DNA of 43,674 nucleotides from Bacteroidales bacterium (GTDB taxonomy: Bacteria > Bacteroidota > Bacteroidia > Bacteroidales > UBA932). Where the stretch lies: assembly GCA_022777585.1 (NCBI GenBank), contig JALFFZ010000009.1, positions 1 to 43,674 on the forward strand, read 5' to 3'. Shown here in pieces: positions 2,473 through 25,348 of the stretch. The position numbers were made by a program, and so were the translations under genes. Position 1 is the first letter of the stretch. Every line of letters starts with the position of its first letter. The notes below the pieces were generated by a model. It was not told the origin of the DNA, ran no database searches, and saw nothing but the letters and a program-made list of their open reading frames with translations.

Positions 2473-3777
2473 CTATTCTTCCGTAACCTTCTCGATGTTG
2501 TCAGGGAGTTTCTTGACTATAATCTTGTCAATTCTGGCACCGTCCATATCAGCAACCTCAAATGAGAATCCCTGCCACTCAGTCTTTTCCCCTGATTTCG
2601 GAACATGCTGGAGATTCTCCAGAAGAAGACCTCCCACTGTGGAGAAATCGTAATCTTCCATATTCTCTCCGAGGTCGAAATGCGAAAGGAAGTCATAGAT
2701 GGAGCATTGTCCGTCCACCAGCCATCCATCGCCGTCCTTGCGCGCAATGATGTCAGGCTCCTTCATGAGCTCCTGAGGGGCCATATTGCCAACCAATGCG
2801 TCGAATATGTCCTTCAGGGATATGATACCCTCCAGCCCGCCGAACTCGTCACAGACAAGCGCCCTGTGAATCCGCTCCGACTTCATATATTCGAGCACTG
2901 TGTATATGCTCATATTCTCATGGACATAGTGTGCCTCCTTCATCATCTTCCTGAGGTCCAGATGCTTGTCCCTTCTCAGAGCTGTCACGTAATCCTTGAT
3001 GGAAAGAACGCCGACAACGTGGTCAATATCTCCGTCCACGACTGGGTACTGCTCGAAAATGGTGCCCTCTATAGTCTTGATGATCTCCTCCTCAGTCATC
3101 TCGAGGTCCAGCCATACTATGTCATCCCTCAATGTCATTATAGTGCTGACACTCAAGTCTCCCAATGTGAACACTCGTTCCACGATATCCTGCTCCACTG
3201 GAGAAACCTCACCTTCGTCCTTGCCTTCCTCTATGATTGACTTGATTTCATCCTCTGTAACCTTGGACTCCCTTTCCTTGATGCCCAGTGCCTTGGTACA
3301 CAATGCAGTGCTTTTGGCAAGCAACCACACCACAGGGGATGCGATCCAGGAGACGAATCGCATAAGTCCGGCCAGAGTCTTTGCTACCTTTTCCGGATTT
3401 GACATTGCAATGCGCTTCGGAATAAGCTCTCCGAGAAGGATGGAGAGAAACATTACAATGAATACGATTATTGCCTTTGAAAGTACTGAGGCAGTACCGG
3501 CGCCGACACCGACGTATGTCAGAAATGAAGCAAAGTCGCGGGCCAGCGTGTCCCCGGAAAAAATACCGGTCAGGATGCCCACAAGAGTCACTCCCATCTG
3601 GACCGTAGAAAGGAATTTGTCCGGATCCGATGAAATCTTTACGGCTGCCCTCGCAGCCTTGTCTCCCTTGGATGCCTCAGCATTGAGTTTGGATTTTCTG
3701 GAAGAGATCATTGCAATCTCCGCCATCGAGAAAACTCCGTTGATAAAAATGAGCAGGAGTATTATAAAAGCTTCCAT
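2473..3777 (-). CDS. Hemolysin/CNNM-type transporter with CBS pair and CorC_HlyC domain
   Basis: N-terminal CNNM transmembrane region (FINGVFSMAEIAMISSRKSKL), CBS region, C-terminal CorC_HlyC-like domain. Confidence 0.9.
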   Translation of the reverse strand: MEAFIILLLIFINGVFSMAEIAMISSRKSKLNAEASKGDKAARAAVKISSDPDKFLSTVQMGVTLVGILTGIFSGDTLARDFASFLTYVGVGAGTASVLSKAIIVFIVMFLSILLGELIPKRIAMSNPEKVAKTLAGLMRFVSWIASPVVWLLAKSTALCTKALGIKERESKVTEDEIKSIIEEGKDEGEVSPVEQDIVERVFTLGDLSVSTIMTLRDDIVWLDLEMTEEEIIKTIEGTIFEQYPVVDGDIDHVVGVLSIKDYVTALRRDKHLDLRKMMKEAHYVHENMSIYTVLEYMKSERIHRALVCDEFGGLEGIISLKDIFDALVGNMAPQELMKEPDIIARKDGDGWLVDGQCSIYDFLSHFDLGENMEDYDFSTVGGLLLENLQHVPKSGEKTEWQGFSFEVADMDGARIDKIIVKKLPDNIEKVTEE

Positions 3778-3782
3778 ATCTG

Positions 3783-4436
3783 CTATTTGAGCTCGGCGAT
3801 TACGGTTTCAGCCGCCTTGATTTCTTCTCCGAGCCTGACTTTTACTTCCGCATCCAAAGGCAGGAAAATGTCGAAGCGGGAGCCGAATTTGATGATTCCG
3901 CATTGCTTTCCCCTCTCTTCCTGCGAACCCTCTTCCGAGTAGCATACGATTCTGCGCGCAAACGTGCCGGCAATCTGCTTGAAAAAGATTTCCTCCCTGC
4001 CGGTGTCTATAGCTGTGGAAGAATGCTCGTTTTCCTCAGCAGCCTTGGGCAGGAATGCAAGCAGATATTTGCCGGGATGATACTTGTAGTAGCTGACTTT
4101 TCCGCTCACCGGCCAGAAATTGGCATGCACGTTGAAGAAGTCCATATATACAGAGACCTGGATGCACTGTCTCCTGAGATACTCCTTTTCATATACTTCC
4201 TTGATAATCACGACTCTGCCGTCAGCTCCGGAAGTGACAAGCCTCCCGCCTGCGGGAGTGTGCCGAACCGGCACCCTGTGAAACCAGAGCACGAAGAAAG
4301 CAAACAATGCCAGAATTATGGACAAGGTCAGGGAAAGCGCCTTCAGTGGAATGAAATGCAGGCTAACGAAGATAAGTAATCCGCAAACTGCCCACGCAAT
4401 TGCAATCGTCCCGTATGAATTCTTGTCTATTGTCAT
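3783..4436 (-). CDS. psd: Phosphatidylserine decarboxylase family protein
   Basis: Motifs SVYMDFFNVHANFWPVSGKV and KFGSRFDIFLP (GS autocleavage site); next to cdsA-like gene. Confidence 0.92.
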   Translation of the reverse strand: MTIDKNSYGTIAIAWAVCGLLIFVSLHFIPLKALSLTLSIILALFAFFVLWFHRVPVRHTPAGGRLVTSGADGRVVIIKEVYEKEYLRRQCIQVSVYMDFFNVHANFWPVSGKVSYYKYHPGKYLLAFLPKAAEENEHSSTAIDTGREEIFFKQIAGTFARRIVCYSEEGSQEERGKQCGIIKFGSRFDIFLPLDAEVKVRLGEEIKAAETVIAELK

Positions 4437-10786: not shown

Positions 10787-12208
10787 CTATCGGCCGGCAG
10801 TCTGCAGAAGTGACTGGATATCAGTCACATATTGTTTGAATGACTTGTCTGTTTCCATCAAGTCCGATACTGTCATGCAGGCGTGGAGGACTGTTGCGTG
10901 GTCCTTGCCTCCCATCTCCGCCCCGATGGTCGAGAGCGAGCATCCCATAAGATTGCGGCTCATATACATTGCAATCTGGCGGGCCTGGACAATCTGGCGC
11001 TTTCTCGACTTTGAGATAAGGACTTCCTTAGTTATGTTGAAATAGTCGCAGACTGTCTTCTGTACCTTGTCTAGCGTGAGGTCGTTCTTCTCCTCCCCTA
11101 CAATCTTGCCGGTAATCTTCTCGGCCAGTTCCACAGTGATTTCCTTGTGTATAAGAGTTGCGTGCGCTATGAGGGATATCAGCGCACCCTCAAGTTCCCT
11201 GAAATTGGACTTTATACGGGATGCAAGATATTCAAGCACATCTTTCTTCACCGTGACACCCTCCCTGAAACTGCGGGCCTTGAGCATTTCCAGACGCGTG
11301 GAATAGGAAGGCTTCTGCAACTCCACTGACAGACCCCATTTCAGGCGGGAAAGCAGTCTTTCCTCGAAATTCCTAAGGTCGGCCGGTGAACGGTCTGAGG
11401 TGAAAATCAACTGTTTGCCGTTCTCGTGAAGGTGATTGAAGATATTGAAGAACGCTCCCTGTGAACCCGGTCCGATGAGATCCTGTATGTCATCCACGAT
11501 AAGGACGTCAATCTTCATATAGAAGGCCAGGAAGTCGGTCAGCTTGTTCCTGACATTCACGGCATCCATATACTGCGTCTTGAACTCGTTTCCGGTCACA
11601 TACAGGACAACCAGGTCAGGATATTTTTCCTTGATTGATATTCCGATAGCCTGCGCAAGATGGGTCTTGCCGAGGCCGGGACCTCCGAAGAGAAACAGCG
11701 GATTGAACGGTGTATCACCCGGAGCAGATGATATGCTCTCACCAGCTGTGATTCCCATTCTGTTGCACTCGCCCTTCACGAGGTTGTTGAAACAGTATAC
11801 AGGGTTCAGTCTCGGATTGACCTGAACTCTCCTCAATCCAGGGAATACGAATGGACCGGGAGCAGCTCCGGCCGGATATGTATTGACCGAAATAGCCTTA
11901 TTCTCAGGCACGGAGGAATCCTGGGCCGGGAATGTCATCGGCGGCTGCACCTTCACAGGGCTGGTCCTGTAAATCAGCCTGGCATCCTGACCGATAACCC
12001 TCTGCAATGATTTTTTGAGCACATTGAGATAAACCTCCTCAATGTATTTCCTGTAAAAATCGGAAGGGACCTCAATGGTCAAGGTCGAATCCTTGAGTGA
12101 AAGCGGCTTCAACGGCTTGAACCAGCGCTCAAACATCTGAGCACCGATAATGTTCTCTATGATTCTGCTGCATTTGCTCCAAACCTCTATGTGACTTCCC
12201 TGCTGCAT
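10787..12208 (-). CDS. dnaA: Chromosomal replication initiator protein DnaA
   Basis: NPLFLFGGPGLGKTHLAQAIG, IDVLIVDDIQDL, C-terminal DnaA box-binding helix GGKDHATVLHAC. Probable start MQQGSHIEVWSKC (12208); ORF track start is 12232. Confidence 0.96.
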   Translation of the reverse strand: MQQGSHIEVWSKCSRIIENIIGAQMFERWFKPLKPLSLKDSTLTIEVPSDFYRKYIEEVYLNVLKKSLQRVIGQDARLIYRTSPVKVQPPMTFPAQDSSVPENKAISVNTYPAGAAPGPFVFPGLRRVQVNPRLNPVYCFNNLVKGECNRMGITAGESISSAPGDTPFNPLFLFGGPGLGKTHLAQAIGISIKEKYPDLVVLYVTGNEFKTQYMDAVNVRNKLTDFLAFYMKIDVLIVDDIQDLIGPGSQGAFFNIFNHLHENGKQLIFTSDRSPADLRNFEERLLSRLKWGLSVELQKPSYSTRLEMLKARSFREGVTVKKDVLEYLASRIKSNFRELEGALISLIAHATLIHKEITVELAEKITGKIVGEEKNDLTLDKVQKTVCDYFNITKEVLISKSRKRQIVQARQIAMYMSRNLMGCSLSTIGAEMGGKDHATVLHACMTVSDLMETDKSFKQYVTDIQSLLQTAGR

Positions 12209-12239
12209 ATTATCTACCTCAAGCCTTTTCACGGACCGC

Positions 12240-21029: not shown

Positions 21030-23060
21030 TTACCAGACTTTTACTCTGTTCTCAGGAGCGACGTAAAGCGAGTCGCCAGGCTGGATGTTGAAGGCATCGT
21101 ACCAGTAGTCGCACTGTGCGAGCGCACCGTTGACGCGGAGTCTTGCAATCGAATGTACATCCATCATTGTGAGATACCTGAGGATTTCTTCGCTTGCGGT
21201 GTCAGCCCATACGTTGGCATAGGAGAGGAAGAATCTCTGCTCAGGGGTGAAGCCGTTGTCTGTGTCAAGTCTGCCGTGTTTCTTCTGCCACATCTGGAAG
21301 GCTTCGTAGGCGATATTGAGTCCGCCGTGGTCGGCAAGGTTTTCTCCGAGGCAGAGGGCTCCGTTGGCTTTGAGTTCGCCAGGAATTACCCAAAGTGAAT
21401 TGAAGAATTCCACCATCTGGGAGCAAGGCTTGCTGAATCCTTCGGTATCGGCTTCGGTCCACCAGTCAGAGAGGTTGCCGTCTTTGTTGTATTTGCGTCC
21501 CTGGTCGTCGAAGCCGTGTGTCATTTCGTGTCCGATTACGACTCCAATCGCACCGTAATTAGCTGCTGCATCGGCTGTTATGCTATAGAGAGGTGGCTGG
21601 AGGAAGCCTGCAGGGAAGCAGATTTCATTGGTGGTCGGATTGTAATATGCATTGACCATCTGGGCCGGCATATGCCACTCGTCGGTATCGACAGGCTTGT
21701 TGTATTTCTTGTTGTAGTTGAGTTCCCAGTAGAATTTGCGGGCTGCCCTGATGTTGTCGTAGAGGGTGAGCTCAGGATCGACGGTGAGTCCGCTGATGTC
21801 GTCCCATTTGTCGGGATAGCCGACCTTGACTTTGTAGGCTGCAAGTTTGTCGAGGGCTATTGCCTTGGTGGAGTCGCACATCCAGTCCTGCTTCCTGATG
21901 ATTTCTGCAAGGGATGCCTGGAGATTGGAAATCATTTCGAGCATCTCGTCCTTGGCTTCTTTCGAGAAGTATCTCTTGACGTACATCTGGCCTACAGCAT
22001 CGCTCATGAAGTTGTCCACGAGGGATTCGGCCATTTTCCATCTCGGGGTCTTCTGCTGGACTCCGTAGAGTTTCTTGTTGAAGTCGAAGTTTTCGTCGGT
22101 GAAGTCGTCGGACAATACTGATGATGCTCCGGAGATGAGCTGCCAGCGGTAAATGTCCTTGAGGTCTTCGAGGGATGCTGTCATAAGGATTTCACAGGCT
22201 TTTGCAACTGGTTCAGGCTGACCGAGATCCACTTCCCTTGTAAGATTGTATCTGTAGTTGTCGAGGTAGGTTCTCCAGTCGAATCCGCCGCAGATGGCGG
22301 TGAGGGAATCTACTGTAACCTTGTGGTAGTTGGCGTCAGAGTCGCGCTGCTTTTCCATTGAATAATAAGGTTCTGCGATGGCGGTCTCGATGGCCCAGAT
22401 TCTTTCCATCTTGTCTCTGGACTCTTCTGCGCCGTAGCCTGTGAGGACGAAGAGGCGTACCATATGCTCTTTCATGGCTTCCCTGATCATTGTGTTCTGC
22501 GGGTCGTCGCTGAGGTAGTAGTCTCTGTTTCCGAGTGAAAGACCGTCCTGGCTGATGCAGACGATGTTGTTTCTGGAATCTTTCTCGTCAGCGCCGACGA
22601 AGATGCCGAAGAGAAGGTTGTCGTGCTCTCTGGCGCAATGTGCAAGCAGGTCCTCCCTGGTCTGGATGGCGTCGATTTCTGCAATGTGGGCGCGGAGTGG
22701 AGCTGCTCCTTCGCTGTTGAGACGGACCGAGTCCATCATCATGTTGTAGAGGTCACCGATTTTCTGCTCGATGCTGCCTTTCTTGTTCTCGCCTGCGGCA
22801 ATGTCCTGGATGAGGGCTGCAAGGGCCTTGATGTTGTCATCCTGAACCTTTCCTACGGTTCCCCACATAGGATACTCCTTAGGCTGAGGGTTGAGTTCAG
22901 CCCAATGCCCTGTGGCATATCTTGCGAAATCGTCGCCTGCGCGGACGGTGGTGTCCATGTAGGCGTAGTTGATGCCGGCGTTCCTGTCCGGTGTTCTTGT
23001 GCATCCTGCCGCTAGCAGCAAGGTGCAGATTGTCAGAAGTTTTGCTTTCATATTTATCAT
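21030..23060 (-). CDS. M13 family metallopeptidase (neprilysin/PepO-like) lipoprotein
   Basis: GVVIGHEMTHGFDDQGRKYNKDGNLSDWW (HExxH), ENLADHGGL, lipobox LLAAGC. Start may be MKAKLL at 23051. Confidence 0.95.
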   Translation of the reverse strand: MINMKAKLLTICTLLLAAGCTRTPDRNAGINYAYMDTTVRAGDDFARYATGHWAELNPQPKEYPMWGTVGKVQDDNIKALAALIQDIAAGENKKGSIEQKIGDLYNMMMDSVRLNSEGAAPLRAHIAEIDAIQTREDLLAHCAREHDNLLFGIFVGADEKDSRNNIVCISQDGLSLGNRDYYLSDDPQNTMIREAMKEHMVRLFVLTGYGAEESRDKMERIWAIETAIAEPYYSMEKQRDSDANYHKVTVDSLTAICGGFDWRTYLDNYRYNLTREVDLGQPEPVAKACEILMTASLEDLKDIYRWQLISGASSVLSDDFTDENFDFNKKLYGVQQKTPRWKMAESLVDNFMSDAVGQMYVKRYFSKEAKDEMLEMISNLQASLAEIIRKQDWMCDSTKAIALDKLAAYKVKVGYPDKWDDISGLTVDPELTLYDNIRAARKFYWELNYNKKYNKPVDTDEWHMPAQMVNAYYNPTTNEICFPAGFLQPPLYSITADAAANYGAIGVVIGHEMTHGFDDQGRKYNKDGNLSDWWTEADTEGFSKPCSQMVEFFNSLWVIPGELKANGALCLGENLADHGGLNIAYEAFQMWQKKHGRLDTDNGFTPEQRFFLSYANVWADTASEEILRYLTMMDVHSIARLRVNGALAQCDYWYDAFNIQPGDSLYVAPENRVKVW

Positions 23061-23154: not shown

Positions 23155-23331
23155 CACTATATTTAGATATGTTGTACTTTTTCGATGTGGACAATGCAAA
23201 ATTATATATGACTGGTAATTAGCATGTTAAGTGATATCAACGTGGACATTACCATCAAAAGGCCTGAGAATCGGCCGTATTGTCATTGCTAACTGGGCTA
23301 CGGAATGGGGTGCCGGAATGGAACGTGGCGG

Positions 23332-23438
23332 CCGGAATGGTACCTCATTTCTCCGGACCAGGCCCTCCCAAACTGCGTTTGGGCCCCTCCCTCTAGTGCC
23401 GAGGGCGGCAAGTCCTGCGAAATGAGGTACCATCCCGG
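23332..23438. repeat. Head element copy 1: 107 bp with 20-bp terminal inverted repeats and an inner hairpin
   Basis: CCGGAATGGTACCTCATTTC (23332-23351) vs GAAATGAGGTACCATCCCGG (23419-23438), 19/20 complementary; inner CCCAAAC-TGC-GTTTGGG at 23367-23383. Confidence 0.88.
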
Positions 23439-23471
23439 CTCATGGCATTGACGTAGAACTGGATTTGCGGC

Positions 23472-24207
23472 GAACCTTCCATGCTGGAGGGCTGAATCGT
23501 GGATGGTTCAAGGTCAAAAGGGTGAACCTTCCACGTTGTATGCCCGAATCGTGGACGGTTCGAGGTCAAAAAGGCGAACCTTCCACGAATTAGGCACGTA
23601 TCACGGATGGTTCATTTCTCAGAAGCGAACCTTCCATGCTGAAAGCCGATATCATGGAAGGTTCAATATCTAGGGGCGTACCTTCCACGCTGTATGTCTG
23701 AATCGTGGACGGTTCGAGGTCAAAAGGGCGAACCTTCCACGAATTAGGTGCGTATCACGGATGGTTCGATATAAAACAACGGAACCTTCCATGCTGAAAG
23801 CCGATATCATGGAAGGTTCAATGTCAACGGGGTGAACCTTCCACGCTGTATGCCCGAATCGTGGATGGTTCAAGGTCAAAAAGGTGAACCTTCCACGAAT
23901 TAGGTGCGTATCACGGATGGTTCATTTCTCAGAAGCGAACCTTCCATGCTGGAGGCTGATATCATGGATGGTTCGATATAAAAACAACGGAACCTACCAT
24001 GCTGAAGGGCTGAATCGTGGATAGTTCGAGGTCAAAAGGGCTAACCTTCCACGAATTAGGTGCGTATCACGGATGGTTCATGTCTCAGAAGCGAACCATC
24101 CACGCTGGAGGTTGATATCATGGAAGGTTCAATATCTAGGGGCGAACCATCCACGCTGCTAGTCGATATTATGGACGGTTCATATCTTAAGCACGAACCT
24201 CCCCACG
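23472..24207. repeat. Hairpin-type tandem array 1: about 14 units of 51-52 bp plus a terminal half-unit
   Basis: Units GAACC[T/A]TCCA[C/T]G-N14-C[G/A]TGGA[A/C/T]GGTTC-N13/14 read directly; spacers recur in defined classes. Confidence 0.92.
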
Positions 24208-24219
24208 GAGCACCTTTCA

Positions 24220-24251
24220 GCAGACGATGTCTGCAGGCGGCATCAGCCGCC
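24220..24251. repeat. Tail hairpins copy 1: GCAGAC-GAT-GTCTGC and GGCGGC-ATCA-GCCGCC
   Basis: Perfect 6-bp stems read directly; equivalents in copy 2 at 24802-24835. Confidence 0.75.
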
Positions 24252-24327
24252 GCACGGAGAACAGCGAAGTTTGGGCCTTGAGGCGATGTTGCGAATGGTA
24301 TGTTTTCATTGTAATGGAACGCGGGTG

Positions 24328-24434
24328 CCGGAATGGTACCTCATTTCTCCGGACCTGGCCCTCCCAAACTGCGTTTGGGCCCCTCCCTCTAGTGCCGAGG
24401 GCGGCAAGTCCTGCGAAATGAGGTACCATACCGG
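24328..24434. repeat. Head element copy 2: 107 bp with 20-bp terminal inverted repeats
   Basis: CCGGAATGGTACCTCATTTC (24328-24347) vs GAAATGAGGTACCATACCGG (24415-24434); only a few differences from copy 1. Confidence 0.88.
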
Positions 24435-24467
24435 CTCATAGCATTGACGTAGAGCTGGATTTGCGGC

Positions 24468-24790
24468 GAACCTTCCATGCTGGAGGGCTGAATCGTGGAC
24501 GGTTCGATATAAAACAACGGAACCTTCCATGCTGAAAGCCGATATCATGGAAGGTTCAATGTCAACGGGGTGAACCTTCCACGCTGTATGTCCGAATCGT
24601 GGAAGGTTCGAGGTCAAAAGGGCGAACCATCCACGCCTGTAGTCGATATCATGGAAGGTTCAATATCTAGGGGCGAACCTTCCATGCTGGAGGGCCATAT
24701 CACGGATGGTTCGATATAAAACAACGGAACCTTCCATGCTGAAGGCCGATATCATGGACGGTTCATATCTCAAGCACAAACCTCCCCACG
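24468..24790. repeat. Hairpin-type tandem array 2: 6 units plus terminal half-unit
   Basis: Same 12-nt motif and spacer classes as array 1; ends in the same divergent half-unit aacctccccacg. Confidence 0.92.
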
Positions 24791-24822
24791 AAGCACCTTA
24801 AGCAGACGAAGTCTGCGAAGGC

Positions 24823-25020
24823 GCCATCAGGCGCCGCGCGAAGGAATGCGAAGGGTTGGCCGGAGGCGATGGTGCGCCCGGAGCGCCCTCCCCCGTAATG
24901 GGGGCAGGGGGGAAATATAAACAAGCCATCAGGCGCCGCGCGAAGAAATGCGAAGCGTCGGCCAGCGGCGATGGTGCGCACGGAGCGCACACCCACGTAA
25001 TAGGGACAGGGTGGGAAATA
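24823..25020. repeat. GC-rich imperfect tandem repeat, 2 x about 100 bp, abutting rnpB
   Basis: GCCATCAGGCGCCGCGCGAAG[G/A]AATGCGAAG...GGCGATGGTGCGC..CGGAGCGC...GTAAT...GGGAAATA at 24823 and 24925. Confidence 0.85.
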
Positions 25021-25022
25021 AA

Positions 25023-25348
25023 AAGGCGGGACCGTAAGCCGGTTTCTGTTTTTGAATCTGCCATTTATCTACGCAACCTACCCCCTGACATCGGGCGGGC
25101 AGTCCTCATCTGTCAGTATATTTGGTTTTGCAGGCCCTGGTGCCGTACCCGCAATACATCGCTGCAATGCGCCGTGGGCTCTTACCCCACATTTTCACCA
25201 TCACTTCCGGGACTGGCCCGGAGGCAGACATTCTCTGTTACGGCTGGCAAAAGATTACTCCCATCTGCGATTTCCGCAGCAGGGCGCCCTTTCCTGTCCG
25301 GACTTTCCTCACCTGACTTGTGACAGGCGCGGCAGATCGTCCCGCCTT
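25023..25348 (-). ncRNA. rnpB: RNase P RNA (class A)
   Basis: Reverse strand contains GTGAGGAAAGTCCGGACAGGAAAGGGCGCCCTGCTGC near the 5' side and CAGAAACCGGCTTACGGTCCCGCC at the 3' end; terminal P1 pairing AAGGCGGGAC / GTCCCGCCTT, then a short T run. Confidence 0.95.

Follow-up and report, generated by a model that had tools for sequence, protein, structure and literature searches.

Palindromic 52-bp arrays downstream of rnpB in a Bacteroidales genome resemble atypical REP/BIME repeats of a RAYT system

The closest described relatives of the arrays analyzed here are the REP and BIME repeats with their RAYT proteins (PMC2817692, PMC6006769), and the mechanism by which RAYTs multiply REP repeats is still an open question in the field. 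As in those systems, the present arrays are extragenic imperfect palindromes that occur in many copies and are patchily distributed among species, their half-sites are regularly spaced and alternate in orientation, and in related bacteria they directly flank RAYT genes. They differ from REP/BIME repeats in that the units lack the GTAG/CGTC foot, run head-to-tail with a fixed 52-bp period, and come from a genome in which no RAYT was found; because the foot is missing and a source-genome RAYT was not found, we file them as atypical rather than canonical REP. In the accessible portion of PMC6006769, Bacteroidetes RAYT genes of subclass 2.6 are described as flanked by 'atypical secondary structures', while arrays of the present kind are not described there, and a limited search of the published literature did not find the 52-bp rule. 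BOX elements of Streptococcus pneumoniae (PMC3049150) are similar in architecture, with an end module, variable tandem middle units and another end module in intergenic DNA, but they belong to a different phylum and the arrays studied here mostly lack end modules. According to the available text of PMC4596501, the BrickBuilt, MITE464 and PgRS elements of Porphyromonas gingivalis, also a member of the Bacteroidales, are intergenic, combine a leader, a tandem repeat and a tail, and include a zero-repeat copy; however, their repeats are direct and 23 or 41 nt long (the 23-nt ones without spacers) rather than palindromic 52-bp units, they carry IS5-type terminal repeats, and no RAYT link is seen in that text. 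Lastly, some candidate structured RNAs of Bacteroidetes (PMC2864571) share compensatory changes and a pseudoknot with the head module of our locus, which differs from them in lacking an Rfam family and in having an outer stem that is unique to each copy.

The locus lies in a window of 43,674 nucleotides, this being the whole stretch of DNA that was analyzed, and forms a block downstream of rnpB in which head, palindromic units, terminal half-unit and tail occur twice in that order:

21030..23060, minus strand: M13 peptidase gene, a neighbour and locus anchor
23327..23440, plus strand: head copy 1, a long hairpin whose outer stem is specific to this copy and whose pseudoknotted core (~23363-23409) is conserved
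23472..24181, plus strand: array 1, 14 palindromic units of 38 bp, separated by spacers of 13-14 bp
~24181..24207, plus strand: terminal divergent half-unit of array 1
24204..24312, plus strand: tail copy 1, GC-rich hairpins, a repeat dispersed in the source genome
24323..24436, plus strand: head copy 2, core at ~24359-24405
24468..24764, plus strand: array 2, 6 units
~24764..24790, plus strand: terminal half-unit of array 2
24787..24922, plus strand: tail copy 2
24923..25018, plus strand: third tail copy, partial, 87% identical, adjoining rnpB
25019..25348, minus strand: rnpB, RNase P RNA class A (Rfam RF00010), a neighbour and locus anchor

These coordinates bear out the original prediction of two tandem head-array-tail copies with 14 and 6 units and a shared terminal half-unit, the two heads being 98% identical over 110 bp, although the third tail copy carries the block past the end given in that prediction (24910). 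The unit counts were read from a MAG, in whose assembly repeats may have been collapsed. Each head folds on itself (the arms of head 2 are 31 nt long and 87% complementary), and the tail starts, at the terminal half-unit of array 1, with the arm-like sequence GAACCTCCCCACG. A search for the exact unit pattern gave 16 matches in the window, whereas 100 shuffles gave 0. A protein-coding origin of the block was rejected, as no reading frame crosses it (each frame contains 10-23 stops, and the longest stretch without one is 117 codons), in line with the earlier view that it holds no convincing gene. The 30 main window proteins that were scanned are mostly of housekeeping types and, as also anticipated, include no transposase, integrase, Cas protein or reverse transcriptase.

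To define the unit, we parsed 165 units from the source genome and three relatives. This revealed an imperfect palindrome of 38 bp in which two 12-bp half-sites, GRACC-N-TCC-RY-G, surround 14 bp; the loop measures exactly 14 nt in 160 of 165 units, and 139 of 143 spacers have a length of 13 or 14 nt, with an array period of 51-52 bp and half-sites that alternate in orientation with fixed gaps. Among distinct units the arm cores are ~97% identical versus 52% for the loops, arm positions 3-5 and 7-9 hardly vary, and position 6 is free in the source genome. The variable positions 6, 10, and 11 pair no more than in shuffled units, either within a unit or between neighbouring units. As the cores are conserved relative to the loops and pairing does not rise above shuffled units, the constraint is on the half-site and its spacing and not on base pairing as such. 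Direct reading of the unit edges showed no GTAG/CGTC tetranucleotide at the unit foot. Single units are able to form imperfect hairpins, in which position 6 is often a mismatch, and some fold strongly, as would befit a transcribed RNA of tandem hairpins, but the missing arm-arm covariation makes a conserved RNA hairpin unlikely and Rfam holds no matching family for the array, such that we give this explanation almost no credence. The structured non-coding RNA locus proposed earlier thus fails for the array, while the covarying motif described below fits it at the head.

The conservation of half-sites is compatible with another early proposal, that of a protein-binding array, for which a RAYT would be the likeliest protein. 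Alternatively, the arrays could be double-stranded DNA sites for a host protein of chromosome organisation or regulation, with half-sites alternating approximately every 26 bp, a repeat of five helical turns, and an incidental proximity to RAYT genes. Each 12-bp half-site is conserved alone, with position 6 free and no pairing constraint, the spacing is fixed, and neither a Pfam search nor a profile search of ~0.77 Mb found a RAYT in the source genome, all of which would suit such sites; we nonetheless judge them unlikely, given that the adjoining genes are unrelated housekeeping genes, the nearest relative is without arrays, and arrays of this geometry are found next to RAYT genes far more often than in controls.

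In the source MAG, 73 strict units were identified, all of them within eight intergenic loci (contigs C121, which is the window, C150, C161, C122, C49, C66, C67, and C113) whose neighbours are the housekeeping genes noted above and for which no common flank motif was seen. This dispersal argues against an ordinary minisatellite that expanded by slippage and unequal crossing-over with neither enzyme nor function. Differing unit numbers and the higher-order repeats of 2-3 units present in the arrays are what a minisatellite would show, but loops that are half divergent in sequence yet of one length, beside nearly invariant arm cores, together with the linkage to RAYT genes and with half-sites and spacing that are conserved across species, render it very improbable. 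Head and tail surround the array only at the window locus and are missing from the other seven; heads and tails also occur alone, and the head-then-tail order recurs at C132, at C51 (twice), and in the relative G137. The recurrence of this order, with 0, 6, or 14 units in between, would suit a composite MITE of the BOX or BrickBuilt type in which head, variable array, and tail are mobilised together by an IS transposase. As seven of eight array loci lack both end modules, which can also be solitary, and as the head outer stems differ by copy, which would not be expected of terminal repeats that a transposase recognises, we consider a composite MITE improbable, if somewhat less so than a minisatellite.

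Among 400 congeners, the geometry RACCNTCC-N20-GGANGGTY-N16 was found in approximately 11 using a looser two-unit pattern, with unrelated loops, while a reversed control pattern in the same search gave a few scattered matches. In these congener arrays, 76 pairs of arms have a gap of 20 and 54 gaps between units measure 16, and many arrays in these assemblies lie at contig ends. The unit matched no viral contig, and in a genome collection it matched one Bacteroidales contig (L065, with the array positioned as in G112 C102) and 13 lone sites in other bacteria. Other genes were observed near individual arrays. On C150, a serine recombinase gene (Resolvase + HTH_7; L021:5625-6233) lies between two array blocks, but as a cognate enzyme this invertase was rejected, since an ortholog is present in the array-free G137 and missing from most array-rich genomes. 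The C67 array begins beside an apparent tRNA gene and has an IS256-variant transposase gene nearby (L028:1549-2544).

In two relatives, G227 and G172, a gene flanked by arrays on either side encodes a protein of 302-306 aa that contains an HUH motif and a RAYT-like NPVAAG...YRWSS region and is ~62% identical between the two genomes. A third RAYT member, in G099, is preceded by seven units and followed by one, and the three proteins are 50-62% identical; the arrays beside them have the same half-site family and geometry as those of the source genome. In a tree of 46 RAYTs, these three and L344 form one fully supported subclade, and all nine array-flanked RAYTs fall, as several subclades, within one of two deep clades. 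The predicted fold of the G227 protein (mean pLDDT 85.6) has as its best PDB match 4er8, E. coli TnpA_REP bound to REP DNA, a match from the fold search only, as a PDB sequence search with the RAYT alignment returned nothing. All 13 aligned RAYTs matched NCBIfam REP_Tyr_transpos with scores below or near threshold, and the array-flanking RAYTs score under the curated NCBIfam and Pfam cut-offs. Arrays with the 52-bp period were present at 7 of 44 RAYT loci versus 0 of 119 controls (p = 7e-5), the 44 loci having been collected by a Y1 search blind to arrays and excluding L180, L198, and L199, which were found via their arrays; at RAYT loci in genomes not chosen for arrays, the count was 5 of 19 (p = 3e-5). 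Most unit sequences at these loci are mutually unrelated, and of all lags from 30 to 120, none but 52 and its double, 104, stands out. At a further RAYT gene, in G340, arrays on both sides have a period of 84 rather than 52 (L316:1749-2304 and 3429-4157).

As the arrays adjoin RAYT genes in related bacteria, a mobile REP-type array, though one of unexpectedly rigid spacing, is the most likely identity, and an assignment to no known family can be replaced by a placement near REP/BIME repeats with RAYT. We therefore favour, with good though not complete confidence, atypical REP/BIME-type arrays of a Bacteroidales RAYT (TnpA_REP, an HUH/Y1 single-strand nuclease) system, grown inside an older intergenic head-tail element, the block then having been duplicated in tandem. 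The source-genome enzyme is one that we infer, since none was found with Pfam Y1_Tnp at E ≤ 0.001, a model that gives the array-flanking RAYT of G172 just 15 bits, or with a dedicated RAYT profile over ~0.77 Mb of this 88% complete MAG. Were a RAYT gene enclosed by two long arrays, its contig would be short and might drop out during binning; arrays that end many contigs would likewise hide array-flanked RAYT loci. The absence of arm-arm covariation, which is expected of a strict hairpin substrate, counts against the favoured explanation, as do the missing foot, the low profile scores of the array-flanking RAYTs and the negative RAYT searches of the source genome. Under the favoured reading, units would form imperfect hairpins in single-stranded DNA that a RAYT cuts and rejoins; the enzyme would seed new units, perhaps on the arm-like tail start, and amplify them in a 52-bp register, after which recombination between units would alter their number. 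In the source genome it would have acted in trans and is now presumably lost or missing from the assembly.

The proposed growth of arrays within an older head-tail element downstream of rnpB, followed by tandem duplication of the whole head-array-tail block, can be compared with the orthologous site in G137, the nearest relative found (M13 peptidase 82% identical). In G137, rnpB is likewise followed by tail, head and M13, but 38 nt and no array separate the head from the tail; no unit match was found in the whole genome. This array-free site means that the array was either gained in the source genome or lost in G137; at C161 and C122, a search for corresponding sites free of the array failed because synteny was too broken. 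Head, array, and tail are separable parts and not one fixed module. Of the non-autonomous mobile or satellite element first suggested, what stands is the array, which is dispersed, patchy, absent from the G137 site, and of the kind that flanks RAYT genes. G137 has two M13 peptidase copies, a full one (C32) and one cut by a contig end beside the head-tail element (C36; L098, L099).

Of 180 genomes from the family, 40, representing 11 of 26 genera, contain the head core, with up to 35 copies in one genome and no match for the control search; its copies include the two in the window (23363-23409 and 24359-24405), L129-L167, and L223-L252. Across 68 distinct copies, inner P3 pairs 2-4 are 93-100% paired versus 44-51% when shuffled, P4 pairs 3-4 covary, and three copies have C-G in place of T-A as the middle pair of the pseudoknot. 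By contrast, outer-stem arms match only when they come from one and the same copy, with a mean score of 19.5 versus 7.7 between copies. Rfam returned no convincing family for the head, also at E ≤ 1 and with canonical head copies, and near RAYT genes the core occurs as fragments in three loci only, ~0.9 kb away or more. The head is thus a separate, family-wide, pseudoknotted, and covarying motif, widespread yet absent from Rfam, and may act as RNA or as single-stranded DNA. More tentatively, as diverged RAYTs are accompanied by arrays that have the 52-bp period in common but are unrelated in sequence, the RAYT-type nucleases of this family could build arrays in a sequence-independent register of ~five turns, with the head as an independent new pseudoknotted class that rebuilds its private outer stem at each insertion; we regard this broader proposal as possible rather than probable. 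One exact period among unrelated array sequences beside a transposase would point to a measuring step. Elsewhere in the window, an IstB-like match at 10787-12232 proved to be DnaA, and, given dnaA in the window, the replication origin may lie close to this locus.
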